Origin: Kitasatospora sp. NBC_01246
GTDB lineage: Bacteria; Actinomycetota; Actinomycetes; Streptomycetales; Streptomycetaceae
NCBI RefSeq assembly: GCF_036226505.1
Contig: NZ_CP108484.1
Location: forward strand, 992,001-1,056,000
DNA: 64,000 bases
Direction of reading: 5' to 3'
This document shows, piece after piece, positions 44,101 to 60,322 of the stretch. How positions within the stretch are numbered: the first letter of the stretch is position 1; each line of letters starts with the position of its first letter. Under the pieces are notes generated by a model that was given only the letters and a program-made list of their open reading frames with translations, was not told the origin of the DNA and did no database searches. A program made the translations under genes and the position numbers.

Positions 44101-44160
44101 GTCACGCGTCACGCGGTCACGCGTCACGCGGTCACGCGGTCAGGCCGTCACGCGGTCAGG
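44101..44160. repeat. Degenerate GTCACGC(G) heptamer/octamer array
   Basis: About eight units of GTCACGC or GTCACGCG, two of them GTCAGGC-like. The array overlaps the last codons and stop of the amidotransferase gene at 44148. Confidence 0.8.
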
Positions 44161-46025
44161 AGGCCGTCGTCGAGCCGGACGTCGTGGAGCCTGAGCCAGG
44201 CGTCCAGCCGGACCGGGGGCTCGGTGTACACCGATCGCTGCATCATGGAGTAGGCGTTCTCGACTGGCGCGGCGAGGTGGGACCGGACGGCGTCGAGGTT
44301 CAGCAGCGGCCGCGCCGGGGCGTCCCGGTCGCCGGCGATCCGGGCGAGCTCGCGGTTGATGGCCCGGTCGTAGCCGAGGTCCTGGGTCGAGGGGTAGGGG
44401 GCCTTTCGGCGCTGTGCGATCGACCGCGGCAGCAGGTCCTTGGTGGCGTGGCGCAGCAGGCTCTTCTCCCGCCCGTCGAAGGTCTTGAACGCCCACGGCG
44501 TGTTGTAGACGTACTCGACGAGCCGGTGGTCGCAGAACGGCACCCGGACCTCCAGGCCGGTCGCCATGCTCATCCGGTCCTTGCGGTCGAGCATCATCTG
44601 GAGGAAGCGGGTGATGTTGAGGTGGCTGGCGAGGCGCATCCGGCGTTCGAGGTCGCTGTCCCCGGGCAGGTGGGTGACCTGGCCGACGGCGGTGCGGTAC
44701 TCGTCGGCGACGTACTCGGCCAGGTTGAGGGACTTGACCAGGCCGGGGTCGAGGAAGCTGGTCGCCTGCTCGCTCACCGGGACCCGGTTGATGGCGTGCC
44801 ACGGGAAGGTGTCGGCCTGCGAGGCCACCGGGTCGTGGAACCAGAGGTACCCGCCGAAGACCTCGTCGGCCGACTCGCCGGAGAGGGCGACGGTCGAGCT
44901 CTCGCGGACCGCCTTGAACAGCAGGTAGAGCGAGGGGTCGTGGTCGCCGATGCCGTAGGGCAGGTCCCAGGCCCGCAGCACGGTGTCGCGGACGCCGGGG
45001 TCGACGAGCTGGGCGGTGTCGAGGAGGATCTCGCGGTGCTCGGTGCCGACGTGGCGGACGAGTTCGGCGGCGAACGGGGCGTCCGGCGCGTCCCGGAACT
45101 GCTCGGGCTTGAACTCCCCGGCCAGTCCGACGAAGTCGACGGAGAAGGTGCGGACCCGGCTGCCGTCCTTGGCGTCGAGCGAGCGCTGGGCCAGCGCGGT
45201 GAGGGCGCTGGAGTCGAGGCCGCCGGAGAGCAGCGCGCAGAGCGGTACGTCGGAGACCATCTGCCGGCTCACCGCGTCCTCGATGAGCTCGCGGACGGTG
45301 GCGACGGTGGTGTCGAGGTCGTCGGTGTGCGGGCGGGTCTCCAGCGACCAGTAGCGCTCCTCGCGCAGCCCGTCGCGGCCGACCCGCAGGATGTGGCCCG
45401 GCCGTACCTCGTAGAGGTTCTTCAACGGGGTCCGGCCGGGCACCCGGGCGAGGGCGAGGGCATCGCGCAGCCCGTCCAGGTCGAGCGTCGCGGTGCTCCG
45501 CGGGTTGGCGAGGATGGCCTTGGGCTCGGACCCGAAGAGCACGCCGCCGTCGATCGGGTAGTAGAAGAGCGGCTTGACGCCGAGGCGGTCGCGGACCAGG
45601 AGCAGCTCCTGCGTCCGGGTGTCCCAGATCGCCAGGCCGAACATGCCGTTGAAGCGGTGGACGAACTCGCTCCCCCACTGGAGGTACGAGCGCAGCACCA
45701 CCTCGGTGTCGCTCCTGGTGAGGAAGCGGTGGCCGAGCAGGACCAGTTCCTCGCGGATCTCCTGGAAGTTGTAGACCTCGCCGCTGTAGCTCAGGACCAC
45801 GAGCGGCCGGCCGTCCGGACCGGTCTCCGGGGTGGTCATCGGCTGGGCGCCGCCCTCGATGTCGATCACCGCGAGCCTGCGGTGGCCGAGCATCGCGTGC
45901 GGGGCGGTCCAGACGCCTTCGGCGTCGGGCCCCCGGCAGGCCATGGTGTCCGTCATGGCCTGCGCGGTCGCTCCCTCCCTGGTCAGGTCGCGACCGAAGT
46001 CCACCCAGCCGACTATTCCACACAT
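44148..46025 (-). CDS. asnB: Asparagine-synthetase-like glutamine amidotransferase
   Basis: 625 residues. The chosen start MCGIVGWVDFG puts the catalytic Cys at position 2, as the N-terminal glutaminase domain requires, and AAAGGG lies nine bases upstream; another ATG lies three codons earlier. The synthetase domain has the PPi loop ALLSGGLDSSALTALA and SGESADEVFGGYLWF. It makes an amide from a carboxylate using glutamine and ATP. In natural-product clusters such enzymes amidate an intermediate rather than make asparagine. It starts 36 bases behind the MFS exporter gene, so the two are one transcript, which supports a cluster role (inference). Confidence 0.9.
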   Translation of the reverse strand: MCGIVGWVDFGRDLTREGATAQAMTDTMACRGPDAEGVWTAPHAMLGHRRLAVIDIEGGAQPMTTPETGPDGRPLVVLSYSGEVYNFQEIREELVLLGHRFLTRSDTEVVLRSYLQWGSEFVHRFNGMFGLAIWDTRTQELLLVRDRLGVKPLFYYPIDGGVLFGSEPKAILANPRSTATLDLDGLRDALALARVPGRTPLKNLYEVRPGHILRVGRDGLREERYWSLETRPHTDDLDTTVATVRELIEDAVSRQMVSDVPLCALLSGGLDSSALTALAQRSLDAKDGSRVRTFSVDFVGLAGEFKPEQFRDAPDAPFAAELVRHVGTEHREILLDTAQLVDPGVRDTVLRAWDLPYGIGDHDPSLYLLFKAVRESSTVALSGESADEVFGGYLWFHDPVASQADTFPWHAINRVPVSEQATSFLDPGLVKSLNLAEYVADEYRTAVGQVTHLPGDSDLERRMRLASHLNITRFLQMMLDRKDRMSMATGLEVRVPFCDHRLVEYVYNTPWAFKTFDGREKSLLRHATKDLLPRSIAQRRKAPYPSTQDLGYDRAINRELARIAGDRDAPARPLLNLDAVRSHLAAPVENAYSMMQRSVYTEPPVRLDAWLRLHDVRLDDGLLTA

Positions 46026-46061
46026 CTCGGACATCCCTTTCGTCGAGTGATCGAGCGCGTT

Positions 46062-47321
46062 TCAGTGGTACGTATCGACCTTCGACGGCTCCGCCGCCGG
46101 GGTACGCGAGGACAACCGGTGCGCCAGCTCGGACAGGCCGAGGGCGGCCACCGCCAGCCCCGCTCCGATGAAGCTGATCCGGTCCGCGCCGATCGAGCTC
46201 ATGCCGACCGCCCCGATGACGCCGGAGAAGGCGATGGCGAGGTAGAGGAAGGCCGCGTTGAGCGAGATCAGCAGGGGCGCGGACTCGGGTTCGAGGGTGA
46301 TCAGACGGGTCTGCTGGGGGGCCGTGATGGCCCAGGCCGCGACACCGTACGCCACGATGACGACCAGCGCGGCCGGGTAGGAGCCGGTGGTCAGCGGGAG
46401 GACGACGAGACTGAGGGCCAGCAGCACGATGGCGCCGCCCACCACCGGCCGGGCACCGATCCGGTCGACCAGCGCGCCGGCGTAGAAGTTGCCGACCGTC
46501 CCGGTCAGACCGAAGGCGAACATCAGGACCGCCAGCCTGGTGCCGCTGCCGCCGGTCGCGTCGGAGAACACCTCGGCCATGTAGGTGTAGACGATGTAGG
46601 CGGCGGTGAAGGCGACCAGCGTGGTCGCGAGCACGGTGACCACCCGGCGGTCGCCGAGCGGGGCGAGCCGCTGGCGCAGCCCGCCGGGGGCCGGCACGGA
46701 CACCCGGGGCACCAGGGCCAGCACGCCGATCAGGCCCAGCGCCGTCAGCGCCGTGATGAACCACATCGTCGCCCGCCAGCCGAGGACGCTGCCGACCACG
46801 GTGCCGATCGGCGCGCCCAGGGCCGTCGCCGCCGTCAGCCCGGTGGTCACCGCGGCGATGGCCCGGCCCCGGCGTTCGGGTTCGACCAGACTGGCGGCCG
46901 TGACGCTGGCCGCGGGGATGTAGAGGCCGGCGCCCGCCGCGGCGATCATCTGCGCGACCAGGACGACCGCGAAGGACGGGGCGAGCCCGGTCGCGATCAC
47001 GCCCGCCATGTAGAGCAGGACGGCGAGCTTGAGCACCCGGTGGCGGGGCCAGCCGGCGGTCAGGGTGCCGAGGACCGGCGACATCACGGCGCAGGTCAGC
47101 GCGAACACCGTGACGGTCTGGCCGGCGGTGGCGATCGAGACGTCCAGGGACTTGCTGAACTCGGGCAGCACCCCGGCGAGCACGAACTCGTCGGTACCGA
47201 GCGCGAAGGTGCCGAAGCCGAGCATCAGGACGGCTCGCCACGCACTCCTCGCCGATACCGCCTCGGGTTCGTCCTCGGCCATCAGCGCTGTTCCCGTGCC
47301 GGAATCGGTCAGCCGGGCCAT
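46062..47321 (-). CDS. MFS transporter (DHA1 drug-efflux type)
   Basis: 419 residues, 12 helices. The family motif region FALGTDEFVLAGVLPEFSKS and the motif C-like GAPIGTVVGSVLGWRATMW are typical of Cml/AraJ-type drug exporters. The start is ATG 47321 with GAAGGAGG upstream. It is divergent from a TetR gene, with two operator-like boxes between them, and cotranscribed with the amidotransferase. It probably exports the cluster product under TetR control. It resembles the second MFS at 61019 closely in motif and layout (FAVGTDAFVIAGLLPDIAGS), so the two may be paralogues. Confidence 0.88.
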   Translation of the reverse strand: MARLTDSGTGTALMAEDEPEAVSARSAWRAVLMLGFGTFALGTDEFVLAGVLPEFSKSLDVSIATAGQTVTVFALTCAVMSPVLGTLTAGWPRHRVLKLAVLLYMAGVIATGLAPSFAVVLVAQMIAAAGAGLYIPAASVTAASLVEPERRGRAIAAVTTGLTAATALGAPIGTVVGSVLGWRATMWFITALTALGLIGVLALVPRVSVPAPGGLRQRLAPLGDRRVVTVLATTLVAFTAAYIVYTYMAEVFSDATGGSGTRLAVLMFAFGLTGTVGNFYAGALVDRIGARPVVGGAIVLLALSLVVLPLTTGSYPAALVVIVAYGVAAWAITAPQQTRLITLEPESAPLLISLNAAFLYLAIAFSGVIGAVGMSSIGADRISFIGAGLAVAALGLSELAHRLSSRTPAAEPSKVDTYH

Positions 47322-47336
47322 GGGCCCTCCTTCATT

Positions 47337-47380
47337 CGGTACCGATCGGTTCTGTTTATGAGGACGGTACCGCTCGGTGC
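47337..47380. promoter_or_regulatory. Twin operator between divergent MFS and TetR genes
   Basis: CGGTACCGATCGGTTC (47337-47352) and CGGTACCGCTCGGTGC (47365-47380) are copies of one 16-base motif containing the palindrome ACCGATCGGT or its near match. Their starts are 28 bases apart. The TetR protein at 47413 is the likely binder. Confidence 0.75.
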
Positions 47381-47412
47381 CGTTTGGGGTCAAGATCCGC
47401 TACCGTGGACCC

Positions 47413-47952
47413 ATGGCGACCCATGCACGCGACCGCCTCCTCCAGACCGCGGAGGAGCTCTTCTACGCCGAGGGGATCCACGCCGTCGGCGTGGAGAGAC
47501 TGCTGGCCGTCTCCGGGGTCGGCCGGGCGTCCTTCTACCGGCACTTCACCGGCAAGGACGCCCTGGTGGCGGCCGTCCTGACCCGTCGGGACGAGAGCTG
47601 GCGCGCCTGGCTCGAAGACGCCGTGGACGCCCGCGGGGGCGGACCGCTCGCGGTCTTCGACGCCCTCGCGGAGGGGGCGGCGGACGTCAACTTCCACGGC
47701 TGCGCGTTCATCAACGCCATGGCGGAGGTGTCCGACCCCGCCAGCGAGGTGTACCGGCTGGCGGCAGCGCACAAACAGGCGGTGACCGACTTCCTCGACC
47801 GCCTGCTCGAAGCCGCCGGGCACAGCCGGCACTCCGAACTCGCGCCGCAGTTCGCCCTGCTGATGGACGGCGCCATCGTCACCGCGATGCGCGAGCGCAA
47901 CGCCGCACCGGCCCTGCTGGCCCGCCGGATGGCGGAGCGGCTCCTCGGCTGA
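47413..47952 (+). CDS. TetR-family repressor of the MFS-asnB operon
   Basis: 179 residues. HTH: LLQTAEELFYAEGIHAVGVE, then VSGVGRASFYRHFTGKDALV (about 9-50). The C-terminal domain contains FHGCAFINAMAEVSDP, seen in TetR regulators of small efflux systems. ATG 47413 lies 33 bases after the second operator box, with a weak ribosome site, so an upstream ATG at 47377 cannot be excluded. It most likely releases the exporter when the product or an intermediate builds up. Confidence 0.88.
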   Translation: MATHARDRLLQTAEELFYAEGIHAVGVERLLAVSGVGRASFYRHFTGKDALVAAVLTRRDESWRAWLEDAVDARGGGPLAVFDALAEGAADVNFHGCAFINAMAEVSDPASEVYRLAAAHKQAVTDFLDRLLEAAGHSRHSELAPQFALLMDGAIVTAMRERNAAPALLARRMAERLLG

Positions 47953-48092: not shown

Positions 48093-48515
48093 TCAGGGCC
48101 GGTGCCCGCCCCGGGCCACCGGCGGTGCGTCCGCCGCGGCCCGGCCCGGTGTCCCGATGGCGGCGGCGATGACCAGACCCCGCTTGTGCGTGATCGAGAC
48201 CCCAATGGCCGCGATGCCGCGCTCCCGGGCCCTCAGCGCGGCCTCGCCGCCGAGCCGGACCACCGGCGCCCCGCCGTCGGCGCGCAGGACGCTCACCTGC
48301 CGGGGGGTCACTCCCCCGCCGAAGCCCGTGCCGATCACCTTCAGCACGGCCTCCTTGGCCGCGAACCGGCCGGTGAGGAACTCCCGGGCCCGCTCCGCCC
48401 CGTAGGAGTCCGCGATCTCCAGCTCCGCCGGCGCGTAGGCGTACACCCGGAACCAGGGCCGGCCGAGCAGCGCCGCCAGCTCGCCCTCCTGGAGGACGTC
48501 GACACCGATCCACAC
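48093..48515 (-). CDS. AcpS-type holo-ACP synthase (phosphopantetheinyl transferase)
   Basis: 140 residues: VWIGVDVLQE (metal Asp at 6) and GRFAAKEAVLKVIGTG (metal Glu about 55), then IGVSITHKRGLVIAAAIG near the end. It transfers 4'-phosphopantetheine from CoA to a carrier-protein Ser. Being the last gene of the core operon, it probably activates the two carrier proteins encoded at 51252 and 56228. It is distinct from a housekeeping AcpS in its unusual middle (RPWFRVYAYAPAELEIADSY). The GTG 48515 start gives the shortest AcpS-like N-terminus. Confidence 0.82.
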   Translation of the reverse strand: MWIGVDVLQEGELAALLGRPWFRVYAYAPAELEIADSYGAERAREFLTGRFAAKEAVLKVIGTGFGGGVTPRQVSVLRADGGAPVVRLGGEAALRARERGIAAIGVSITHKRGLVIAAAIGTPGRAAADAPPVARGGHRP

Positions 48516-48600
48516 GGTCAGCGCACCCCCCGCCGAGGCGGCCGGACGACGCCGGCCCGGACGGCGGGTACGGCGCGGACGACGCCGGCACGGACCGGGC

Positions 48601-49761
48601 TCACCGGAGGAACGTGCCCTTGAGCACGCCCTGGAAGACGGCCAACCGCTGGATGTGCCCGGTGCCCTCCATGAACTCGAAGGCCCGCGCGTCCCGGTAC
48701 AGCTTGTCGAGCAGCGGATCCGCCAGCAGGGCGCCCGGGCCCAGCAGTTCGGCGGCGGCCAGGGTGCTGCGCTCGGCGAGCTCGGCGGCACGCGTCTTGA
48801 CCCCGGCGATCCGGTCCGCTCCCGTCCGGCCCGCGTCGATCGCGGCGGCCACCTCGTAGTTCCGGTGCCGCAGCGCGGCGAGGGCGTCCACCAGCTCGTC
48901 CAGCCGCAACCGGTCCGTACCGGTGAGCCCCGGACGCTCCTCCCGCACGTGGTCCAGCACCGCGCGGACCAGCCCCAGCGCCGTCCCGGCGAGCACCGGA
49001 CGGAACCGCTGCAAGGTCCGGATGGCGCCGACCAGCCCGCGCCGGCTGGGCTTGAGCGTCTCGTAGCCGAGGATCTGCTCGCGCTCCACCCGGACGTCCT
49101 CGAACCGGATCGCGGAGATCCGCGCGCCGCGCAGGCCGACGGTCGGGATCAGCTCGGCCCGCAGGCCAGGCGCCGTGGTGTCCAGCAGCACCGCCTCGAT
49201 GCCGAGCGGTCCCGGTGCCCGGCGGCAGAACACCACGCCCAGCTGGGCGAAGGCGGCGTTGCCCACGTAGCGCTTGGCGCCGTTCAGCCGGAAGCCGTCC
49301 CCGTCCGGGGTGAGCGCCGTCTCCAGTTCGGCGGCGGCGGACCCCTTCTCGGGCTCGGTCAGTCCGAAGAAGGTCCAGGTCGATCCGGGGGCCGCCACCC
49401 GCTCGTAGTAGGCCTGCCGCTGCTTGTCGTCACCCAGCGCGGCGACCGCCACGCCGGACATCAGCGGGCCGGGGCAGGCGAGCATGAAGCCCGCGTCTCC
49501 ATAGCTCAACTCCTCGATGGCAATCGAGTGCTCGAGACAGGAGCTCATGTCGTAGGTGTGTCCGTCGATGCGCAGCGGCCGCTCCAGGTACTCCACCGGG
49601 ACGGTGGCCTTGCGCATGATGTCCACCACGGGGAGGTGCAGCCAGCGGTCGATCGCCTCCGGGTCGCGGTCGATCTCCAGACCGATCCCGCGCAGCTCTC
49701 CCGCGGACTCGCGGATGTGGGACCTGAGCGCGGCTGTCCGGTGCGGGTCCGGCTCACTCAT
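48601..49761 (-). CDS. Acyl-CoA dehydrogenase-family flavoenzyme
   Basis: 386 residues with the three ACAD domains: N-terminal helices, a beta domain TFFGLTEPEKGSAAAELETAL for FAD/substrate binding, and C-terminal helices ending DARAFEFMEGTGHIQRLAVF. The typical catalytic base region is present. It would introduce a 2,3-double bond into an acyl thioester, probably carrier-bound. The start overlaps the shorter ACAD-like gene by eight bases. In small-molecule clusters, ACADs also dehydrogenate amino-acyl carriers or act as N-hydroxylase-like oxidases, so the exact reaction is open. Confidence 0.85.
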   Translation of the reverse strand: MSEPDPHRTAALRSHIRESAGELRGIGLEIDRDPEAIDRWLHLPVVDIMRKATVPVEYLERPLRIDGHTYDMSSCLEHSIAIEELSYGDAGFMLACPGPLMSGVAVAALGDDKQRQAYYERVAAPGSTWTFFGLTEPEKGSAAAELETALTPDGDGFRLNGAKRYVGNAAFAQLGVVFCRRAPGPLGIEAVLLDTTAPGLRAELIPTVGLRGARISAIRFEDVRVEREQILGYETLKPSRRGLVGAIRTLQRFRPVLAGTALGLVRAVLDHVREERPGLTGTDRLRLDELVDALAALRHRNYEVAAAIDAGRTGADRIAGVKTRAAELAERSTLAAAELLGPGALLADPLLDKLYRDARAFEFMEGTGHIQRLAVFQGVLKGTFLR

Positions 49762-50395
49762 TCCCGTCCTCGTCTCGTTCTCGGCGGTCCGGCAGGAGGT
49801 AGGTGTTGCCCAGCAGTTCGGCGAGGTACAGCAGCCGGCCGGGGCCGTCGGCCACGAAGCCGCTCGCGCCGTACAGCTTGATCGCGACGCGGCCCGCGTC
49901 CACCAGCCCGCAGTGGATCCGGTGGCGGCGCGCGGCGGTGCGGTCGGGGATCGCCAGCAGGTCGGCCGCCTCGGTGAGGGCCAGCGCGACGTCGGCCACC
50001 GCGCTCCGCACCAGTTGACGGTTGAGCAGGGTGGCGCCCTCCGAGATGCGGTCGTTGAGCCGGACCACGACGGCGTCGAGCAGCCCGCGGAGCAGCTCCC
50101 GGTGGAGCCGGAGCAGCCCGTCGGCGAACAGCTCCCGGGCCCGGTCCGGCGACGGCGCCCCGGGGCCGGTCACGGCGAGCGCGTCGAAGCCGCCCGGCAC
50201 CGGGGTGCCCTCCGGCAGGCGCCCGGCCGAGGCGACGGCCCAGCCGCCGGTCGAGCTGACCAGCGCGCCCGGGCCTGCCAGCTCGTGGCAGGCGTCGAGC
50301 GCGGCGGCGAAGTTCCGCAGGGCCGCCGCGGCCCCGGCGCTACCGGTGCCGACGCCGCCGGGCGCCGTCCAGGGCGGGGTGTCGACCGGCGGCAT
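49754..50395 (-). CDS. Truncated acyl-CoA-dehydrogenase-like subunit
   Basis: 213 residues, about half of a normal ACAD. RLNDRISEGATLLNRQLVRS, ALALTEAADLLAI and KLYGASGFVADGPGRLLYLA resemble the C-terminal helical domain of ACADs, but the N-terminal and beta domains are missing. It overlaps the full-length ACAD gene by eight bases and its upstream gene by one. I infer a heteromeric ACAD in which this protein is a non-catalytic or second half, as known for some steroid-pathway enzymes of actinobacteria. Confidence 0.6.
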   Translation of the reverse strand: MPPVDTPPWTAPGGVGTGSAGAAAALRNFAAALDACHELAGPGALVSSTGGWAVASAGRLPEGTPVPGGFDALAVTGPGAPSPDRARELFADGLLRLHRELLRGLLDAVVVRLNDRISEGATLLNRQLVRSAVADVALALTEAADLLAIPDRTAARRHRIHCGLVDAGRVAIKLYGASGFVADGPGRLLYLAELLGNTYLLPDRRERDEDGNE

Positions 50396-51240
50396 CAGAG
50401 CGCTCCCCTGCCGGAGGCCGCGGTCCCGGCGGAGTCCGAGGCCAGCACGGCCAGGTGGCTCTCGCCGGAGCGCGGGTCGGTGTCGCAGAGCAGCACCGTG
50501 GCGTACCGGTGCTGCCAGGAGCGCCAGTTCCGGGCCAGTGCCAGCCAGACGCTGGTGCAGTAGCTGCCGGGCTCCACCCGGTGCCGGGGGCCGTCCTGGT
50601 CCAGCCCCCGCCGGTCGAACCAGGACCCGGTGACCACCAGCGTGCCCGCCGGGTCCTTGGCGGCCAGCTCCCCGAGGCGGTCGAGGGGCGACTCGGTGGC
50701 GGGGATCGTCTCGACCCCCGCCACCCGGGGTCCGCCGGTGGTTCCGAGGACCAGCACCACCCCGGAGTCGACCAGGCCGTTGTCGTGGACCAGGGGGAAC
50801 CGGGTCGGCAGGGTGGTCTGTTCGAGGACGGCGAGCACCGCCGTCCGGCTCCGGCCCGCCCGCTGGAAGGCGGAGACGACCCGCAGCGCGGTGAACGGTG
50901 CGGCCAGGCCCTGCTGGCCGATGCCGAGGTTGTTGGCGGACCCGCCGCCGAGCAGCCGGTCGAGGTAGGGCGCGATGGCGACGAACGGCGTCACGTCCGG
51001 CAGCGCCTGCGCCACGATCACCAGGTCGGGCGCGCTGTCCCGGACGCCCTCGATCGCCGCGAGCCGGTCGACCAGGTCGCGGTGGGTGACGTTCGGCGCG
51101 GCGCGCAGCAGGTCCGGCGCCACCTCCAGGCCGAAGGGCTCGACCAGGTCGCGGTAGTAGGAGAGCGTCGCCGGGTCCTCGTCGTACGGCCGGCGCGGCG
51201 GGGAGACCACCGCGCCGGCGCCCTGGAGGGTCGTGGACAT
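50395..51240 (-). CDS. Ketosynthase-III-like protein with Gln in place of catalytic Cys
   Basis: 281 residues. The first half follows a KAS III/thiolase fold: PDLVIVAQALPDVTPFVAIA, then SANNLGIGQQGLAAPFTALR, where the catalytic Cys of ACSG is replaced by Gln (about 109-110), and AVLAVLEQTTLP. The second half (WFDRRGLDQDGPRHRVEPG; WRSWQHRYATVLLCD) does not show the KAS III His and Asn sites. It cannot condense in the normal way; a Gln there recalls KSQ decarboxylases, but a purely structural or partner role is equally possible. ATG 51240 has GGGAG six bases upstream; 11 bases separate it from the carrier-protein stop. Confidence 0.6.
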   Translation of the reverse strand: MSTTLQGAGAVVSPPRRPYDEDPATLSYYRDLVEPFGLEVAPDLLRAAPNVTHRDLVDRLAAIEGVRDSAPDLVIVAQALPDVTPFVAIAPYLDRLLGGGSANNLGIGQQGLAAPFTALRVVSAFQRAGRSRTAVLAVLEQTTLPTRFPLVHDNGLVDSGVVLVLGTTGGPRVAGVETIPATESPLDRLGELAAKDPAGTLVVTGSWFDRRGLDQDGPRHRVEPGSYCTSVWLALARNWRSWQHRYATVLLCDTDPRSGESHLAVLASDSAGTAASGRGAL

Positions 51241-51251
51241 CGCGGTCTCCC

Positions 51252-51506: not shown

Positions 51507-51540
51507 GTTCCGGTTCACTCCTCTGTGCCGGGGCTGTCGG

Positions 51541-51702
51541 GGCCTGTCTGGGCTGGGCTGGGCTTGGCTGGGCTTGGCTGGGCTGGGCTGGGCTGGGCTG
51601 TCAGGGCTGTCGGGGCTGTCGGGGCTGTCGGGGCTGTCGGTGGCTCTGTCACGGTCGCGCGGTCGGGGACTTCGCGGCTGCCGGGGCTGCCGGGGCTGCC
51701 GG
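51541..51702. repeat. GGCTG pentamer and GGGCTGTCGG decamer arrays
   Basis: 51547-51600 is a run of GGCTG/GGCTT pentamers, 51601-51643 a run of GGGCTGTCGG decamers, and 51674-51702 three copies of CGGGGCTGC. Together they fill the gap between carrier protein 1 and the PLP decarboxylase. Confidence 0.85.
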
Positions 51703-51719
51703 GAACGGCCGCCGACCGG

Positions 51720-52994: not shown

Positions 52995-54358
52995 GGCGTC
53001 CTTTCGGTGGTGCCGAGACGGTGGAGCGCCTCGGTGGTCCGGCGGTCGAGGTCGCCGAGGCCGTGCCGGTCGGCGGCGAAGAGCAGGGTGTAGAGCCGGC
53101 CGTCGAACGGGAGGGAGGTGCCGGCCTGCGCGTTGACCGTGCCGAAACAGGTGACGACCAGCCCGGTGCCGTCGACGGGCGGCCGGGCGAGGTCCCCGAG
53201 GGCGTGGGCCACCTCGTCGAAGGAGACCGGGGCGGAGATCCGCAGTGGGTAGTGCTTCGCCAGCGCGGCCCCGCCCGGGGCGAGGAAGCGCTCGGTGACC
53301 TGCCCCTGGTAACTGGACATGTTCAGACGGGCGTTGATCTCCAGGACGGGGTACACCAGATCGTCCCGCCCGAGCAGCGCGTCCACGCCGACCACGCCGA
53401 AGAAGCCGTCCTCGAAGAGCCGGGCACCCAGCCGCTCGGCGGCGGCGACGAGGCTCTCGTGCTGGACGGGCGAGAGCGCGGCGGGCATGACGTGCCCGAG
53501 GTGGACGCCGCCGGAGGTCAGGGCCTCCTTCGCGAAGTCGAACCTCACCCGCCCGTCCCGGGCGATGGTGAACTGGTAGTTGAGATCGAACCGCTTGGGC
53601 AGGAACCGCTCGACGACGACGTGGATCGCGTCGTCCCCGCTGCTCCGCGCGCGGCGGTCGACCATGCGCAGCAGCCGGTCGGCCTTCTTGCGGCTGTCGA
53701 GCACGATCAGGCCCTTGCCGGAGACGCCGTAGGCGTCCTTGACGATCACCGGCCCGCCGTCGCGCAGCGAGTCGTCGAGCGCCCGGTGGAGCTCGCCCAC
53801 CGTCTCGCAGGTGAAGCCGGGGATCGCCCGCAGGCCGAGCTCCTCGGTCAGCCGGCGGCTGTAGATCTTGCTGTTGACCCGCGCCGAGGTCTCCGGACCG
53901 GGCACCGCGGGGCGCAGCCCGGTCCGCCGGCAGATCTCCTGCTCAAGGGGGGAGTTGCCCATCGGCATGAGATAGGCGCCGCCGCCCGCGAGCACCCGCA
54001 GCCGGTCCAGCAGCTCCGGGGAGTCGAGGACGGCCCCGCTGGTGCCGTCCTCGCCGGCCGGCGCCCGGGTGATCAGTTCGGTGGGCGCGCCGAGCCCGGT
54101 CTTCTCCGCGTACGCGCGGTAGCCGGGATCGAGCGGGCGGTCGAGCAGCAGGTGGTCGGTCGGCTCGGCGAGCAGGGCGCCGAGCTCCTCCATCCGCTGC
54201 ACGGTCGCGGCGGTGGTGGTGATCCGCGCCGCCGGGAGCCCGGTGTGGCCGCGCGCCCACTGGTTCTCCACCTCGAAGTTGCAGAGCCAGACGAACCGCG
54301 CTTCGCGGTCGCCGGTCAGCGCCTCCTTGAGGTCCGCCGTGTAGGCGGTGCCGGTCAT
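52991..54358 (-). CDS. ATP-grasp ligase, BtrJ/peptide-ligase type
   Basis: 455 residues. N-terminal half of unknown fold, then an ATP-grasp: GGPVIVKDAYGVSGKGLIVL (lid Lys and Gly-rich loop), DAIHVVVERFLP, and the metal-binding VVGVDALLGRDDLVYPVLEI with NARLNMSSY. It activates a carboxylate as the acyl phosphate and passes it to a thiol or amine. Position between the KAS III and PLP decarboxylase genes, with ATGA overlaps on both sides, suggests loading of an amino acid on a carrier as BtrJ does; peptide-bond formation like PGM1 is the alternative. ATG 54358 has GGGAGG upstream. Confidence 0.78.
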   Translation of the reverse strand: MTGTAYTADLKEALTGDREARFVWLCNFEVENQWARGHTGLPAARITTTAATVQRMEELGALLAEPTDHLLLDRPLDPGYRAYAEKTGLGAPTELITRAPAGEDGTSGAVLDSPELLDRLRVLAGGGAYLMPMGNSPLEQEICRRTGLRPAVPGPETSARVNSKIYSRRLTEELGLRAIPGFTCETVGELHRALDDSLRDGGPVIVKDAYGVSGKGLIVLDSRKKADRLLRMVDRRARSSGDDAIHVVVERFLPKRFDLNYQFTIARDGRVRFDFAKEALTSGGVHLGHVMPAALSPVQHESLVAAAERLGARLFEDGFFGVVGVDALLGRDDLVYPVLEINARLNMSSYQGQVTERFLAPGGAALAKHYPLRISAPVSFDEVAHALGDLARPPVDGTGLVVTCFGTVNAQAGTSLPFDGRLYTLLFAADRHGLGDLDRRTTEALHRLGTTERTP

Positions 54359-55314
54359 GGGGTGCCTCCCTCGCGGTGAGTGATGACCATGGCGCCGAAG
54401 GTGGCGCCCAGGCCGACCGAGACCAGGACGTAGTGGCCGCCGTCGACCAGCCGGCCCCGCTCGCGCAGGGTGGTGTAGTTGAGGAACACGTCCGAGGCGA
54501 AGCAGTGGCTGTAGAGCGGGATGTTGTCCAGGAAGAAGCGGTCCGGGTCGGCGCCCATCCGCTGGATGGTGTGGCGCCAGGAGACGGCGTTGACGTTGTG
54601 CGGGATGACCAGGTCGATCTCGTCGAAGCTCAGGCCGGCCCGGCGGACGGACTCCTCGATCACCTCGCCGAGCACGGTGGCGTAGTCCTGGCCGAAGGCG
54701 CTGATCTCCTGCGGGGTCATCTCCAGGCCCGCCGCGTAGGCGCCGAGGGTGCGGGTCAGGTACGAGCGCACCTCGTCGCCGGGGCCGCCGACGGTCAGCA
54801 GGCAGGCGGAGGCCGCGTCCGCCATCACCGCGCTGTTCGGGATCAGCTGGACCTTCGGGGAGTACGCCCGCTCCCCCGTGACCATCAGCGCGTACGCGCC
54901 CTCGGGCGCCTCGGCCCGCAGCAGCTCGCCGGCCAGGTCGATGGCGCCGAGGCTGCTGACGCACGCCTGCTGGGTGAGGGCGAAGGCCTCGGCGTCGTGC
55001 AGCCCCAGCTTCGCCCGGATGACCCGGGCGGCGTCGATGTGCGGCGGGGCGAGCGTCTGCATGGTGTGCGCGTAGATGACGTAGTCGACCCGCCGTCCTG
55101 CGGGAAGCGCCGCCAGGGCACGGCGGGCCGCGGGAAGCACCAGGTCGAAGAGGCCGGTGCCGGGATCGAACCGCAGCCGGTCGAGGCCGTAGATCTTCCG
55201 GAACACCCCCACTTCGGCGCGGCGCAGCCCCAGGCTTCCGGCGAGGTCGTCGATCCGCACGCTCCGTTCGGGGAGGAACGACTCGATCCTCTCCAGTGTG
55301 GTCACGCCACCCAT
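54355..55314 (-). CDS. KAS III-like ketoacyl synthase with Cys-His-His site
   Basis: 319 residues. Cys 118 in FALTQQACVSSLGAID and His 239 in LVIPHNVNAVSWRHTIQRMG are clear. At the position of the third catalytic residue, normally Asn in an NTSAAS-like motif, LYSHCFASDVFLNY gives His 270. It should condense an acyl starter with a malonyl or other extender, or form an ester or amide like some KAS III relatives; His in the third place resembles the KAS I/II triad. GGGAG lies before the start. It is the only full condensing enzyme in the core operon. The stop overlaps the ATP-grasp start. Confidence 0.85.
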   Translation of the reverse strand: MGGVTTLERIESFLPERSVRIDDLAGSLGLRRAEVGVFRKIYGLDRLRFDPGTGLFDLVLPAARRALAALPAGRRVDYVIYAHTMQTLAPPHIDAARVIRAKLGLHDAEAFALTQQACVSSLGAIDLAGELLRAEAPEGAYALMVTGERAYSPKVQLIPNSAVMADAASACLLTVGGPGDEVRSYLTRTLGAYAAGLEMTPQEISAFGQDYATVLGEVIEESVRRAGLSFDEIDLVIPHNVNAVSWRHTIQRMGADPDRFFLDNIPLYSHCFASDVFLNYTTLRERGRLVDGGHYVLVSVGLGATFGAMVITHREGGTP

Positions 55315-55387: not shown

Positions 55388-56215
55388 TCAGCGGCCGGCG
55401 AACTCGGCGCGGACCAGCCAGCTGCGCGCCACGCCCCGGCGGTCGCGGGGCTGCACCTCGTACGGCCAGCGCCCCTGGCCCGCGCCGGGCTCGCCGGGCT
55501 CGCGCAGCTCGCGGACCTTCCAGCCGGTACCGGCCAGGAACTCCTCCGGCTCGTCGGTGCCGAAGAGCCAGGGCGTGCCGTCCTCGCGCAGGCCGGCCAG
55601 GAATGCCCTGGAGAAGGGGCTGCGCAGCAGCGCCCGGCTGGCGAAGTCGACGGCCAGCCGGCTGCCGGGGGCCGAGACCGAGCCGAGCACGCCGAGCAGG
55701 TGGGAGGCCTGCTCCTCGGTGAGGAAGAACATCAGCCCTTCGGCGACCCAGAGCGTGGGCAGTTCCGGGTCGAAGCCGGCGCGGTGCAGGGCGGGCAGCC
55801 ACTCCGTGGCGAGGTCGGCCGACACCTCGCGGCGCTCCACCGTGGGCTCCGCCCCGAGCGCGGCCAGCCGGGCACGCTTCTCGTCGATGAGGCCGCCGTG
55901 GTCGACCTCGTACACCGTGCTGCCGGGCGGCCAGGCCAGCCGGAACGCCCGGGTGTCCATCCCGGCGGCGACCAGGACCACCTGCCGGATGCCGCTGTCC
56001 GCCAGCAGCGCCTCGATGCTGTCGTCGAGGTACTTGGTGCGGATGGCGATGAACGGGATCAGGCCGCCGCCGCCGTACTTGTCGAGGAGCTCGAAGCCGC
56101 GCGGGGCCGCGAGATCGCGCGCAAACCTGTCCTGGAACATGGCGTCACCGGGGCGCTCGGACTCGACGGCGCGGGCCGCGGCGGTCCACTGGGCCGTGTA
56201 CGAGACAGCTTCCAT
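55388..56215 (-). CDS. LCM-family SAM-dependent O-methyltransferase
   Basis: 275 residues of the leucine-carboxyl-methyltransferase/TIGR00027 type: VVLVAAGMDTRAFRLAWPPG (SAM site), VYEVDHGGLIDEKRARLAAL and LPTLWVAEGLMFFLTEEQA. Bacterial members methylate carboxylates or acidic hydroxyls of small molecules. ATG 56215 has AGGAGG upstream. Placed between carrier protein 2 and the KAS III gene, it should methylate an oxygen of a cluster intermediate; an oxime, N-hydroxy or nitronate oxygen created by the N-oxygenase is one candidate (inference). Confidence 0.85.
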   Translation of the reverse strand: MEAVSYTAQWTAAARAVESERPGDAMFQDRFARDLAAPRGFELLDKYGGGGLIPFIAIRTKYLDDSIEALLADSGIRQVVLVAAGMDTRAFRLAWPPGSTVYEVDHGGLIDEKRARLAALGAEPTVERREVSADLATEWLPALHRAGFDPELPTLWVAEGLMFFLTEEQASHLLGVLGSVSAPGSRLAVDFASRALLRSPFSRAFLAGLREDGTPWLFGTDEPEEFLAGTGWKVRELREPGEPGAGQGRWPYEVQPRDRRGVARSWLVRAEFAGR

Positions 56216-56227
56216 GGGGATGGCCTC

Positions 56228-56476
56228 CTACGGGAGTCGGGCCGGGGTGAAGAAGGCCTTCTCGATCGACGAGAGGGTCTGGAGGTCCTGCATGTCGATG
56301 CTGTCGAAGTCGATCTCGACGCCGCTGGCGCTCTCGATCGTGTAGACCAGCTCCACGAAGGAGAGCGAGTCGACGAGGCGGCTCTCGATGAGGTTCTCGT
56401 CGGGCTCGATGGATTCCCGGTCCGGGTGCCTGGCCAGGATCCACTCGCGGACCTGGTCGATTCCTGCCGAAGCCAT
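56228..56476 (-). CDS. Free-standing carrier protein 2
   Basis: 82 residues with NLIESRLVDSLSFVELVYTI; phosphopantetheine Ser about 37. ATG 56476 has GAGGAG five bases upstream. Followed after 12 bases by the methyltransferase gene and preceded by the amino-acid:carrier ligase. In known ligases of that type the cognate carrier is encoded next to the ligase, so this is the most likely partner. It is less acidic and differs in sequence from carrier 1, so the two probably hold different substrates. Confidence 0.87.
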   Translation of the reverse strand: MASAGIDQVREWILARHPDRESIEPDENLIESRLVDSLSFVELVYTIESASGVEIDFDSIDMQDLQTLSSIEKAFFTPARLP

Positions 56477-56592
56477 TGCCACTCCTCGGGTGTTGGGGCG
56501 ATAGGGGGATAGGGCGATCCGGGCATGCTCGGGCCGTGCTGGATGCGTCGGGACGTACGCACTCCACGCAGCCCGTGCCGGATGCGCTCGGG

Positions 56593-56633: not shown

Positions 56634-56645
56634 AGGCTCCGCGGC

Positions 56646-57491
56646 TCAGGCGAGCTGCCGGACCGCGGTCCGCACCGCGTCCAGGGCCTCGACCGCGTCG
56701 CCGTGGTGCAGGTCGACCAGGACGGAGAGCCACCGCTCCAGGCCGAACGCCACGCAGCTGGTGAAGACGAACTCGTTCTCCGGCCCGCGGATGTCGCAGC
56801 GCTCGCCGAAGAAGTTGCGGTGCGTGTTGACGGAGGAGACGGCCAGGTCGCCGACCTGGAACTCGTACTTGACCGGGCTGAGCTTCTGGAGCAGGGCTCG
56901 GGCGCCGTCGGCCCGGAAGAACGGGTCGAAGGCGGGCACCTTCTCCAGCCGCAGGGACAGCGCGTCGGCGAACGCAGCGATCCGCTCGGCGAAGGACCCG
57001 AGGACCTGCTGCGTGTGCTCGTACGAGCCGAGTGCGACGACCTCGCGCATCTGGAAGCTGAGCAGCCGCCGCAGGCCCTCGTACCGCTCCTCGTTGCGGA
57101 AGCAGCGGTTGACCAGGGTGATCAGCGCGTCCGCCGCCACGACGGAGTTCTCGTAGTACAGGAAGGCGCTGTAGCAGGTCGCGTGGGGCAGGCCGACCTG
57201 TGCGCCGCGCAGTGCGGCGGGCGCGAACCGGCCGTCGACGGGCTTGTTCTCGCCGCTCTCCAGGTCGAGTCCGGCACCGACGAGGGCGAGGTGCGGGAAG
57301 TTGACGTAGACGTCGAACTTCTCCAGGTCCGACACCGGGTACAGCGGCGGCGGGAGGATCTCGCGGGCTCCGGCGGAGCGGCCCCAGCCGGCGAACGTAC
57401 GGTCGAGTTCGAGGAGCAGGTCGGTCTGGTCCGGGTCGAGGATGACCAGTCCGCCGGCGGGGCCGGTGGTTCGGGGGGCGGTGCCGGCCAT
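56646..57491 (-). CDS. Class II aaRS-like amino acid:[carrier protein] ligase
   Basis: 281 residues, similar to the catalytic core of atypical seryl-tRNA synthetases but without a tRNA-binding domain. Putative zinc ligands Cys 106 (ATCYSAFLYY), Glu 150 (SFQMREVV) and Cys 246 (FTSCVAFG); motif 2-like FRNEERYEGLRRLLSFQ; motif 3 GLERW (250-254). VNTHRNFFGERCDI is typical of this family. Known homologues activate glycine or alanine and load it on a free-standing carrier protein, not tRNA. The ATG overlaps the N-oxygenase stop (TGATG). The partner carrier is probably at 56228. Confidence 0.83.
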   Translation of the reverse strand: MAGTAPRTTGPAGGLVILDPDQTDLLLELDRTFAGWGRSAGAREILPPPLYPVSDLEKFDVYVNFPHLALVGAGLDLESGENKPVDGRFAPAALRGAQVGLPHATCYSAFLYYENSVVAADALITLVNRCFRNEERYEGLRRLLSFQMREVVALGSYEHTQQVLGSFAERIAAFADALSLRLEKVPAFDPFFRADGARALLQKLSPVKYEFQVGDLAVSSVNTHRNFFGERCDIRGPENEFVFTSCVAFGLERWLSVLVDLHHGDAVEALDAVRTAVRQLA

Positions 57492-58357
57492 CAGATGAGC
57501 CCCGTCCTCTCGAGGTACTTGGCGGTCTTGCGGTAGACGCTCTGCTCGAACTCGGCGCGCTGCGGGGATTCGAGGAGCTGCCGGCGCAGGCCGTGCGGGT
57601 CCTTGATGCCCGCGTCCCGGTACACCTGCGGGCTGTAGAGCGTCTCGAAGCTGTAGGTCATGTAGCGCCGGATGTAGCCGGCGATGTCCCGCATCTCCTC
57701 CTCGGTGGAGGTCTGCCGGACGTCGGCGGCCAGCGCGGTGACCAGTTCACGGCCGAAGGCGATGTGCCGCGACTCGTCCTGGTGGTGGATCCGGTTGATC
57801 CCGCGGATCGTCTCGTGCAGGCGGTCGTCCAGCGCCATCCGGGAGTTGAAGTGGTCCACCAGCTCCTCGAAGATCAGGATCCGGGCGAAGACCAGCAGGC
57901 TCTCCACGTTCGAGCGGGGGATCTCGACGTTCGCACCGGCCGGCTGCCGGTAGATCTTCCTGCCGTAGCGCAGGCAGAACTCGGCGAAGAACCACATGTG
58001 CTCGTTCTCCTCACCGATGAAGTGGTGGAAGAAGTCCGAGGGCGTCTCGAAGCCGGTGGTGTGAATCCGCTTGGTGACCTCGATGAGAAGTTCCCGAATT
58101 CCGTGCACATTGAGGCTGTAGAAGTTGATGCTCTCGTACCGCGACAGTGCGTGGAGCTCCTTTTCGGTGAGCCGCCGGGCAGCCTCGGTACCGTGGGTGG
58201 TGGTGAGTTCGGGGCTCATCCACCACATCTCCTCGGGCAGGCTGTCCGGCCATTCGAAGAGTTTGTAGGGGTTGTAGTAGTCATCGATCGACTTCGTGGT
58301 CAGACGGTCGAGTATTTCCAGGAACCGGCCGTCCTGGTCGATCAGTTTGCTGACCAT
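57491..58357 (-). CDS. AurF-like diiron N-oxygenase
   Basis: 288 residues of the AurF/CmlI-type ferritin-like superfamily. Candidate iron ligands: Glu 75, Glu 116/117 with His 120 (FIGEENEHMWFF), Glu 164/165 with His 169 (IFEELVDHF), and His 191, Glu 195, His 198 (RIHHQDESRH). Relatives oxidise aromatic amines to hydroxylamines, nitroso or nitro groups. ATG 58357 has GGAGG upstream; the frame is open 48 codons further but without support. It is the first gene of the core operon and is coupled to the amino acid:carrier ligase (TGATG), so its substrate may be a carrier-bound amino acid, which would be unusual. Confidence 0.82.
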   Translation of the reverse strand: MVSKLIDQDGRFLEILDRLTTKSIDDYYNPYKLFEWPDSLPEEMWWMSPELTTTHGTEAARRLTEKELHALSRYESINFYSLNVHGIRELLIEVTKRIHTTGFETPSDFFHHFIGEENEHMWFFAEFCLRYGRKIYRQPAGANVEIPRSNVESLLVFARILIFEELVDHFNSRMALDDRLHETIRGINRIHHQDESRHIAFGRELVTALAADVRQTSTEEEMRDIAGYIRRYMTYSFETLYSPQVYRDAGIKDPHGLRRQLLESPQRAEFEQSVYRKTAKYLERTGLI

Positions 58358-58527: not shown

Positions 58528-58544
58528 CGACGGCACCGGGCCGG

Positions 58545-59543
58545 TCAGCCGGCGGCGCCCCGGACCGGCAGGAGTCCGGCCTGGACGGCGGCCGCGCCCG
58601 CCTGGAACCGGCTCTCGGCGTTCAACTCGTCCATGATGGTGGCGAGGTGACGGCGGAAGGTCCGCGAGGACATGCCGATGCGCCGGGCCACCACCTCGTC
58701 CTTGAGCCCCGAGGCGAGCAGTTCCAGGATGGCGCAGCGGACCTCGTCCAGGGTCTCGCCGTACCTGACCACGTTCGAGTCGATGTCCGTCCCGGACGCC
58801 CAGGCGTGCTCGTAGGAGCGCACCAGCCGGGCGACGATGGCCTGCTCGTAGACGACGGTGACGCCCGCGTCGTCGCCCCCGGGGTCGGCCAGGAAGGCCA
58901 CCTCGCCACCCACGATGACCAGGCGCTCGAAGGCCTGGGTCGAGGTGCGGACCCGCGCGCTCGCCTCGGCCAGCGTCCGCAGGCTGCCGCGTGAGGCCAG
59001 GCTGCTGCGGGCGGTGTGCGGGTACAGGACCTGAATCGGGACCCCGGGCGGCAGCGCCGACAGGCCCAGCACGTGCGAGTCCTGCCCCTGGACCGGGGCG
59101 AACGGCTCCATGACGAGGATCTCGGACGGGCGGTCGCGCAGGGCGTCCGCCATCCGCAACCCGGTCTGCTCCCGGTCCAGCCCGCTGAGCACCGGCTCCC
59201 TCCGCAGCCGGGTGCGCTGGAGGCTGCTGTAGGTGTCGGCGAACGAGCCCAGCGTGTCCTGGAAGTCCGTCAGTTCACGGCGCTTCTCGCGGATCGCCTG
59301 CTCCAGCGGCATGAGCAGTTCCAGTTGGGCGATCTCGGGGCTGCGCGCCACGAAGCGCCCCTGCTCCTGGCAGTACCTGACGAGCTTCAGGCAGCGCAGG
59401 GCGGAGAGCGCCTGTTCCGCCCGCTCGGCCGTGATGCCCAGGTCGGTGGCGAGCTCCGGGAGGGTCACCCCCTTGGCCACCAGCAGCCGCTCGTAGACCC
59501 GGACCGCCAGCTCCTCGTCGATCGAGCACAGTCCCCGCTTCAC
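58545..59543 (-). CDS. TrmB-like/LuxR-type pathway regulator
   Basis: 332 residues. An N-terminal winged HTH (YERLLVAKGVTLPELATDLG, about 15-60) precedes a middle sensor part (REPVLSGLDREQTGLRMADA; VLYPHTARSSLASRGSLRTL), and a C-terminal LuxR HTH (ELLASGLKDEVVARRIGMSS, then RTFRRHLATIMDEL). This design is common among cluster-situated regulators in streptomycetes. GTG 59543 overlaps the thioesterase stop (GTGA), GGAG seven bases upstream. It probably switches on the operon that begins 187 bases downstream. Confidence 0.85.
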   Translation of the reverse strand: MKRGLCSIDEELAVRVYERLLVAKGVTLPELATDLGITAERAEQALSALRCLKLVRYCQEQGRFVARSPEIAQLELLMPLEQAIREKRRELTDFQDTLGSFADTYSSLQRTRLRREPVLSGLDREQTGLRMADALRDRPSEILVMEPFAPVQGQDSHVLGLSALPPGVPIQVLYPHTARSSLASRGSLRTLAEASARVRTSTQAFERLVIVGGEVAFLADPGGDDAGVTVVYEQAIVARLVRSYEHAWASGTDIDSNVVRYGETLDEVRCAILELLASGLKDEVVARRIGMSSRTFRRHLATIMDELNAESRFQAGAAAVQAGLLPVRGAAG

Positions 59544-60322
59544 GCTCTGTCTCCGTCCGCTCGTCCGGTGGATCCGACACCCAGATCCGCGGTGATCGTC
59601 GCGACCACCGCGGCCAACTGCTGATCGAGGAAGAAGTGGCCACCGGGGAAGGAGGTGAGCCGGAACTCCCCTGTGGTGTGGCCCTTCCAGCCGAGCGCCG
59701 CCGCCGGGTCGAGATACGGGTCGGCGTCCGCGAACAGGAAGGTGACCGGACAGGTCACGGTGGTGTCGGGCCGGGCGGTGTAACGGGAGTTGGCCCGGTA
59801 GTCGTTGCGGATGACGGTCAGGATCGACTCGCGGTACTTCGGGCGGTCCAGCAGCCTCGCCGGGATCCCGCCCAGCTCCCGGAGTTCGTCCAGGACCTCG
59901 TCGTCGCCCCGGGGGATGTTCAGGCCGAGCCCGGCGGACGGCGAGCGGCGGCCCGAGACGAACAGCCGCACCGGCGCCCGCCCGGCCGCCTCCAGCCGGC
60001 GGGTCACCTCGAAGGCGACGACCGAGCCCATGCTGTGGCCCAGGACGGCCAACGGCAGGTCGTCGAAGCCGAGCAGTTCGGCGCCGATCCGGTCGGCCAG
60101 CGCGCCGATGTCGTCGATCCCGCGCTCCCCGGAACGGCCGCGCCGCCCGGGGTACTGGACCGACAGCGCCTCGACGTCGCCGGGAAGGGCGGCCGAGAGC
60201 CGGCGGTAGGTGCCCGCCGAGGCCCCGGCGTGCGGGCAACAGACCAGGCGCAGCCCGGCCTTCGGTGCGGGGTCGAATATCTGGATCCATCCCGTGTTAT
60301 TGGTCAAGCCTTGTTCTTCCAT
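59540..60322 (-). CDS. Type II thioesterase of the cluster
   Basis: 260 residues: RLVCCPHAGASAGTYRRLSA, VLGHSMGSVVAFEV (Ser), FADADPYLDPA (Asp) and FPGGHFFLDQQL (His). It frees wrongly loaded or stalled acyl groups from carrier proteins, or could release the product. Overlap with the regulator gene means that its expression is tied to pathway control. It is closely similar in motifs to the thioesterase at 15066 (GHSMG, PGGHF). The ribosome site is weak. Confidence 0.87.
   Translation of the reverse strand: MEEQGLTNNTGWIQIFDPAPKAGLRLVCCPHAGASAGTYRRLSAALPGDVEALSVQYPGRRGRSGERGIDDIGALADRIGAELLGFDDLPLAVLGHSMGSVVAFEVTRRLEAAGRAPVRLFVSGRRSPSAGLGLNIPRGDDEVLDELRELGGIPARLLDRPKYRESILTVIRNDYRANSRYTARPDTTVTCPVTFLFADADPYLDPAAALGWKGHTTGEFRLTSFPGGHFFLDQQLAAVVATITADLGVGSTGRADGDRA

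Follow-up and report, generated by a model that had tools for sequence, protein, structure and literature searches.

A module-less gene cluster of Kitasatospora sp. NBC_01246 predicted to direct the synthesis of an enteromycin-type antibiotic

RESULTS

An operon shared with an enteromycin-producing species

We analyzed a 64,000-nucleotide stretch of high-GC DNA from Kitasatospora sp. NBC_01246 (NZ_CP108484.1, positions 992,001 to 1,056,000; the whole stretch is called the window below), whose source genome comprises 8.9 Mb in three contigs, and conclude with a probability of about 0.85 that a gene cluster built around the minus-strand operon 58357-48093 makes an enteromycin-type antibiotic. 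Such compounds are O-methyl nitronates of nitroacetyl-amino-acrylic acid or of its amide, with a C3 acyl part, and our best reading of the product is enteromycin or its carboxamide (C6H9N3O4).

The operon holds 12 genes, from the start of the AurF gene (58357) to the end of the AcpS gene (48093). They encode an AurF-type diiron N-oxygenase, a class-II aminoacyl-tRNA synthetase (aaRS)-like ligase, carrier protein 1, an LCM-family S-adenosylmethionine (SAM) methyltransferase, a β-ketoacyl-carrier protein synthase III (KAS III), an ATP-grasp ligase, a BtrK-like pyridoxal phosphate (PLP) decarboxylase, carrier protein 2, a Cys-less KAS III-like protein, a small protein resembling acyl-CoA dehydrogenases (ACADs), a full ACAD, and an AcpS. 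The operon is flanked by genes for a regulator, a thioesterase, two major facilitator superfamily (MFS) exporters, a TetR protein, and the amidotransferase AsnB. No adenylation, condensation, or other nonribosomal peptide synthetase (NRPS) domain and no polyketide synthase (PKS) module was matched in the scanned proteins of 44148-60322. An earlier note on this DNA had listed the same genes and proposed a non-modular logic based on free carriers; family matches or fold models recovered every gene listed, and the domain search agrees with the proposed logic. Its description of the operon as tightly overlapping holds for 6 of the 11 junctions, and fails at the gaps of 163 bp between the aaRS-like ligase and carrier 1 and of 201 bp between the decarboxylase and carrier 2. 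GC-rich short tandem repeats with periods of 5, 9, and 10 (51529-51703) occupy most of the latter gap.

The same genes in the same order were found in 14 distinct foreign loci, 13 of them visible from AurF to ACAD and one cut by a contig end. The window proteins were compared by tblastn with 19 foreign loci, none longer than 20 kb, chosen as the best matches of the aaRS-like ligase and not as all of them. AurF adjoined the ligase in 19 of 19 (at L049 as a fragment at a contig end), and the full operon set was present in three (L036, L037, and L038). Scanning genome contigs with the ATP-grasp alignment A1 returned 15 loci. In 10 of them the genes from AurF through the KAS III-like partner follow the order of the window; the order continues to ACAD in nine, while the tenth, from strain CBMA156 (L055, ATP-grasp 94%), stops at the contig end. 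The other five (L064-L068) have the ATP-grasp, decarboxylase, carrier 2, KAS III-like partner, AcpS, and KAS III genes and lack AurF, aaRS, and LCM. The loci of genomes G235, G253, G368, and G659 complete the 14. The position of the regulator, thioesterase, and exporter genes varies, some loci having them ahead of the operon and others behind it. Gene set, gene order, family membership, conserved catalytic residues, and co-inheritance were all computed directly; since the gene order recurs elsewhere and dozens of homologues retain the catalytic residues, these genes do not lie beside one another by chance. The gene-order search proposed in the earlier note thus had a positive outcome, and the note's statement that no known family combines all these genes no longer stands.

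One of the loci (L062) belongs to Streptomyces achromogenes subsp. achromogenes NRRL B-2120 and carries the gene set from AurF to ACAD, with identities to the window proteins of 78% (AurF), 70% (aaRS), 80% (LCM), 82% (KAS III), 74% (ATP-grasp), 79% (decarboxylase), 71% (KAS III-like partner), 78% (ACAD), and 56% (ACAD-like partner). Its layout up to the TetR gene is that of Streptomyces eurythermus. NCBI taxonomy treats S. achromogenes subsp. achromogenes and subsp. streptozoticus as one species, and in S. achromogenes var. streptozoticus NRRL 3125, according to PMC11035981, a nitronate is either O-methylated and incorporated into enteromycin or undergoes denitrification through a nitronate monooxygenase. 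The presence of this gene set in the enteromycin species supports the earlier guess of N-oxidation and methylation to an O-methyl nitronate of the enteromycin kind. The cluster is also carried by Streptomyces albireticuli (L061), reportedly the first enteromycin producer; we found no paper linking the two, and the point is not used as evidence.

The predicted glycine-nitronate cassette

The AurF-type protein (288 aa; 57491-58357, start chosen; PF11583, 6e-29), the predicted glycyl-carrier N-oxygenase, had no match in the PDB at E 0.001 (phmmer). The residues of its E...ExxH...E...HxxxExxH pattern, presumably the metal ligands, are kept in 38 of 38 aligned sequences. These and the following conservation counts include the window itself and repeat records of one contig or species (among them L037/L061, L060/L085, and L063/L087/L105), and homologues covering less than 60% of the query were excluded.

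The aaRS-like amino acid:carrier protein ligase (281 aa; 56646-57491; NF005479, 7.5e-26) is the predicted glycine loader. It matched Bll0957 (PDB 3mey, 1.8e-15), whose substrate we take to be glycine, and its Cys106, Glu150, and Cys246, presumably zinc binders, align with the same residues of that structure and are kept in 40 of 40 sequences. Carrier protein 1 (84 aa; 56228-56482; PF00550, 1.4e-5) has its attachment residue, Ser39, in 40 of 40. The LCM-family methyltransferase (55388-56215; PF04072, 1.4e-48) is the predicted nitronate O-methyltransferase; its closest solved relatives are Rv0731c and ML2640 (9e-36), and its gene is co-conserved with the cluster in other loci. SAM synthetase genes adjoin the operon or cassette in four loci (L048, L050, L062 of S. 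achromogenes, and L063 of S. eurythermus), and a PfkB kinase gene lies near the cluster in S. achromogenes, S. eurythermus, and NRRL S-31 (L062, L063, and L059). Both neighbors fit a SAM-consuming step.

The published work on enteromycin describes steps like those predicted for this half of the operon. PMC9967187 credits He and Ryan (2021) with a diiron oxygenase and a nitronate O-methyltransferase in enteromycin carboxamide synthesis. A passage of PMC12183544 gives the sequence as activation of glycine on a carrier, followed by the diiron oxygenase and then the methyltransferase, and an excerpt of PMC11205464 names the enteromycin cluster in a network analysis using MIBiG.

The predicted enamide cassette

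The KAS III (54355-55314; C-terminal domain PF08541, 2.3e-15; PDB KAS III 4dfe, 1.1e-9) retains Cys and His and carries a His at the Asn position of FabH; Cys is kept in 50 of 50 sequences, His in 48 of 50, and the substituting His in 50 of 50. It is predicted to be an amide-forming acyltransferase. The ATP-grasp ligase (455 aa; 52991-54358; pre-ATP-grasp PF18604, 1.2e-13; CPSase_L_D2, 3.9e-8), whose solved relatives are all weak, is the predicted aspartate:carrier 2 ligase. The decarboxylase (51720-52994; PLP decarboxylase family, 1.2e-39), predicted to act on a carrier-bound amino acid, was closest to PDB 7ru7 (2.9e-90) and BtrK (PDB 2j66, 4.6e-90), and Lys54 and Cys348 are kept in 44 of 44 sequences. 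Carrier protein 2 (88 aa; 51252-51518; PF00550, 7.7e-9) has Ser43 in 51 of 51.

The proteins encoded at 50395-51255 and 49754-50395 gave no Pfam match at E 0.01 and no NCBIfam match at E 0.001, and were assigned by fold. The AlphaFold2 model of the former (286 aa; pLDDT 84) matched FabH in Foldseek (9e-12). In VIA it scored Z 20.8 with AbyA1 and 19.3 with PqsBC, many proteins of the ketosynthase/KAS III/type III PKS superfamily being tied at Z 19-21, so that PqsBC, a two-protein enzyme, and ketosynthase/chain-length-factor chains are among many tied matches. Its catalytic column is without Cys in 47 of 47 sequences. The earlier note had called this protein KS-like, and the model supports a KAS III-like fold; given the missing Cys, we interpret it as a partner without catalytic activity, comparable to a chain-length factor. 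The smaller protein (213 aa; pLDDT 81) is weakly ACAD-like by its model, the best Foldseek row being an acyl-CoA dehydrogenase at E 0.033 and nearly all of the 50 listed rows belonging to the ACAD superfamily. Its gene adjoins that of the full ACAD in the same-order loci visible that far. The full ACAD-type desaturase (386 aa; 48601-49761; PF02770, 1.2e-18; PDB 5ol2_C, 1.3e-28) has Glu365, which we take to be catalytic, in 36 of 37 sequences and Asp in the remaining one. The operon ends with an AcpS-type phosphopantetheinyl transferase (48093-48521, start chosen; PF01648, 6.1e-11).

A free carrier, a BtrK-like decarboxylase, a KAS III, and an ACAD, the parts of an enamide-type cassette, are thus all present in the window cluster. 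In bolagladin biosynthesis, as presented in PMC7756342, the BtrK-like BolN, a free acyl carrier protein (ACP), KAS III proteins, and the ACAD BolQ are proposed to build N-acyl-dehydro-β-alanine from aspartate; deletions of bolN and bolQ support decarboxylation of isoaspartyl-ACP and desaturation by the ACAD, and KAS III is proposed for the N-acylation. For autucedine, a dehydro-β-alanine cassette is indicated by the title of a paper cited in PMC11204786.

Homologues of the ATP-grasp ligase (E 1e-60) were present in 27 of 392 Streptomyces genomes and 23 of 70 genomes of the window's genus. The matches form a high group (above 800 bits; 5 Streptomyces and 6 same-genus genomes) and a low group of 41 places at about 370 to 460 bits, of which 16 were retrieved (L107-L122). 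All 16 have the ATP-grasp and decarboxylase genes, 15 each the KAS III, carrier 2, and ACAD genes, and 12 a detectable KAS III-like partner. AurF or LCM was found in none of the 16, and L119 shows a distant aaRS-like stretch (27%). Because the second cassette stands alone elsewhere, the window cluster is, as judged by gene content, the union of two cassettes. Neighbors at the two scanned loci, L109 and L113, include MFS, MMPL, ketosynthase, and ketoreductase genes.

It is a tentative idea, to which we give somewhat less than an even chance, that the second half is a portable enamide machine across the Streptomycetaceae, with acyl partners mostly unassigned, in which a heterodimer of KAS III and its Cys-less counterpart would join two carrier-bound pieces by an amide, replacing an NRPS condensation domain; the enteromycin cluster would then give the simplest product.

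Two variant arrangements were also seen. The cluster of genome G576 (L089-L090) lacks AurF and the N-terminal half of the aaRS gene and keeps the second cassette, by decay or re-use. In seven loci (L041-L047), the glycine-nitronate cassette is accompanied by KAS III, a second carrier, and the Cys-less partner, and no match to ATP-grasp, decarboxylase, or ACAD was obtained. A free condensation domain is additionally present in L041, and both L041 and L045 have a polysaccharide-deacetylase-family gene. These seven loci probably make a related product.

AsnB and the carboxamide

AsnB (44148-46034, minus strand; TIGR01536, 3.4e-145; asparagine synthase family, 1.5e-90) is a glutamine amidotransferase predicted to form the carboxamide. 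Upstream of it, on the same strand, lies MFS exporter 1 (46062-47393; MFS_1, 4.8e-38), whose homologues (73-91%) directly precede AsnB in four other genomes: AsnB orthologues (81-97%) directly follow the exporter gene in CBMA156, where AsnB is on another contig than the cut cluster, and in G235, S. eurythermus, and NRRL S-31. Counting the window, 5 of 15 strains have AsnB next to exporter 1; it was not found in nine, and the S. achromogenes locus is too short. In seven searched genomes with the cluster there was no linked AsnB, the best copies elsewhere having only 58-60%, and none was seen in the retrieved cluster flanks of G659 and G368, where only the flanks were searched. AsnB is therefore not a part of all clusters, and the amidotransferase and its exporter, which the earlier note had placed next to the operon, are linked to only a subset of the clusters. 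The option that the AsnB-plus clusters form one lineage was rejected as well, because they are scattered in a quick FastTree tree built from five concatenated proteins; the pattern argues for more than one gain or loss of AsnB.

From gene content, we predict that AsnB-plus strains make the carboxamide and the others the acid. As the window is among the 5 of 15 strains with the AsnB orthologue beside the exporter, its product may be the carboxamide, and enteromycin carboxamide specifically seems to us a reasonably good bet, less secure than the compound type.

Other neighbors of the operon

Upstream of AurF on the minus strand lie the genes for a 332-aa regulator with a C-terminal LuxR-type helix-turn-helix (58545-59543; HTH_23, 5.9e-7; GerE, 3.8e-6) and a type II thioesterase (59540-60322; PF00975, 3.5e-44), homologues of both of which adjoin the cluster in other loci. 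MFS exporter 2 (61019-62300, minus strand, approximate limits; MFS_1, 1.3e-40) lies inside an open reading frame (ORF) of 847 aa (61019-63562), with the best MFS_1 stretch at residues 457-673; a homologue is close to the thioesterase in many same-order loci, and in L091 and L096 a DUF6545-matching gene sits between exporter and thioesterase. A TetR regulator (47377-47952, plus strand; TetR_N, 7.5e-13) is divergent from exporter 1 and has homologues (62-72%) near the clusters of G235, S-31, S. eurythermus, S. achromogenes, and Kitasatospora mediocidica, as well as in L040.

Two further genes were rejected as cluster members. For the RimK-like ATP-grasp gene adjoining AsnB (42871-44127), none of the four other loci with a linked AsnB shows a homologue next to AsnB at E 1e-3; S. 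eurythermus has a weak stretch of 28% roughly 3 kb past AsnB. A Rho homologue (33499-35103, minus strand) has no copy near the cluster in the six related genomes checked; it is a second copy, 65% to the other at G000:C1:5507472. Elsewhere in the window, two large adjacent minus-strand ORFs (22647-28897) have FtsX-like permease C termini, and a tetratricopeptide repeat-rich plus-strand ORF of 1690 aa (37589-42661) lies at a distance of about 1.5 kb from the AsnB end.

DISCUSSION

The presence of two carriers and of two ligases independent of each other, together with the separate occurrence of the cassettes elsewhere, points to two building blocks, glycine and aspartate, and not, as the earlier note had supposed, to a series of steps on one amino acid. 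What follows is our inference as to every substrate and reaction, the sequence in which acylation and desaturation occur, the pairing of KAS III, and the role of AsnB. In the first arm, the aaRS-like ligase would put glycine on carrier 1, the AurF-type enzyme would oxidize the glycyl amine to a nitronate, and the LCM enzyme would O-methylate it. In the second, the ATP-grasp ligase would attach aspartate to carrier 2 via the side-chain carboxyl, and the BtrK-like enzyme would decarboxylate it to β-alanyl-carrier. KAS III, which probably works in a pair with the Cys-less KAS III-like protein, would accept the O-methylnitronoacetyl group and pass it to the amine of β-alanyl-carrier 2, forming a C-N bond with no decarboxylation. 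The ACAD pair would desaturate the N-acyl-β-alanyl thioester to an enamide (dehydro-β-alanine), after which the thioesterase would free the acid, AsnB amidate it, and the MFS exporters pump the product out.

Several observations weigh against this reading. The gene-by-gene comparison uses species identity as a proxy, NRRL B-2120 standing in for the producer NRRL 3125, and in the former the operon-end AcpS was matched by a 25-residue piece only, and the locus stops inside TetR, short of the AsnB position. Glycine and aspartate are predicted substrates of the ligases, and BtrK, the closest decarboxylase with a structure, works on a glutamyl carrier. The 213-aa protein has no significant fold match, and the AsnB-plus clusters are spread over the quick core tree and not gathered in one clade. 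Finally, in a pairing count over 94 ligase places (E ≤4.7e-49) in 76 genomes, with 8 of the 84 matched genomes and weaker ligase places, including two broken pieces in G246, left out, 34 places had no AurF nearby, 30 of them in the most distant group, so the ligase alone does not signify nitronate chemistry. In favor of the reading, AurF lay within 1 kb of the ligase at the other 60 places, and 60 of 64 AurF places had a ligase near them.

Of the alternatives, the one that survives best, and is still improbable, is that glutamate is loaded on carrier 2 and decarboxylated to a γ-aminobutyryl-carrier, giving an N-acyl-4-aminocrotonyl (vinylogous) product one carbon longer than enteromycin. The PDB name of BtrK, the closest relative of the decarboxylase, is L-glutamyl-[BtrI] decarboxylase, and the substrate of the ATP-grasp ligase is not readable from its weak solved matches. 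However, the same cassette occurs in S. achromogenes, one subspecies of which produces enteromycin, a compound with a C3 acyl part, and a BtrK-like enzyme is proposed to serve aspartate in bolagladin. An oxime or O-methyl oxime as the end state, as in akazaoxime or althiomycin, is very unlikely: although one Micromonospora cluster is proposed, in a section of PMC9967187, to give both an aldoxime and a nitronate, the only named species found with both the gene set and a reported product points to enteromycin.

The two published fates of glycine nitronate also bear on the window. Outside it, the source genome has a second AurF and aaRS-like pair (L035, G000:C1:7603000-7622999), accompanied by a nitronate monooxygenase, another O-methyltransferase, a carrier, an isochorismatase-family gene, and a free condensation domain, a set that resembles a denitrification branch of the same nitronate chemistry. 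With the L035 monooxygenase as a query (E 1e-40) in the genomes of the pairing count, 15 of 15 matched places lay within 3 kb of an AurF homologue. With the LCM enzyme in the window cluster and the monooxygenase at L035, both fates seem, by gene content, to be encoded in one genome. That the window nitronate is itself an intermediate for nitrite release, not an antibiotic, is the least credible alternative: AurF and aaRS pairs go with a nitronate monooxygenase at 14 of 94 aaRS places, L035 included, but no such enzyme was matched among the cluster proteins, where the LCM enzyme takes its place, and the 13 closest aaRS places, which include the window and range from 62 to 100% identity, have no monooxygenase within 1.5 kb.

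Neither the compound class nor the first arm is new, and the window cluster joins a known group. Within the literature searched, three points are apparently new: the split by AsnB, the organization into two cassettes that includes a Cys-less KAS III-like partner, and how widely the second cassette is distributed. The cluster links a rare O-methyl nitronate antibiotic to a free-standing, module-less pathway in which two carrier cassettes have been combined. The division into AsnB-plus and AsnB-minus clusters is a direct genetic prediction of carboxamide versus acid strains, the lone second cassette offers a handle for finding further enamide compounds, and the predicted C-N bond formation by KAS III and its Cys-less partner is testable with two small proteins and two carriers.

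Compared with known systems, the window cluster resembles butirosin BtrI/BtrJ/BtrK in the predicted ATP-grasp loading of a free carrier and PLP decarboxylation; it differs in adding the predicted desaturation and amide capping, and in an amino acid that is probably aspartate. With the Bradyrhizobium japonicum amino acid:[carrier protein] ligase (PDB 3mey), the window ligase shares the family and the conserved Cys/Glu/Cys, differing in that it sits in an antibiotic cluster beside AurF. The bolagladin and autucedine cassettes share the BtrK-like decarboxylase, free ACP, KAS III, ACAD, and, by prediction, the N-acyl dehydro-β-alanine, whereas the window has an ATP-grasp loader where theirs is a VinN-like adenylating enzyme, a predicted O-methylnitronoacetyl acyl group, and no NRPS. 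The akazaoxime/A-76356 cluster of Micromonospora is proposed in a section of PMC9967187 to use a diiron oxygenase and a nitronate O-methyltransferase on carrier-bound glycine, as we propose here, but is a modular NRPS/PKS, whereas the window cluster has no modules. The closest likeness at the pathway level is to enteromycin carboxamide synthesis in NRRL 3125 (He and Ryan, Nat Chem 2021, as related by citing papers), with carrier-bound glycine, a diiron oxygenase leading to the nitronate, and a nitronate O-methyltransferase, counterparts of all three being predicted for the window. At the gene level, the window proteins are about 70-82% identical to those of S. achromogenes NRRL B-2120 (56% for the ACAD-like partner), and the window differs in two arrangements: like its sister CBMA156, it has no AcpS gene between aaRS and carrier 1, and it has no SAM synthetase or PfkB gene between the AcpS and exporter genes.

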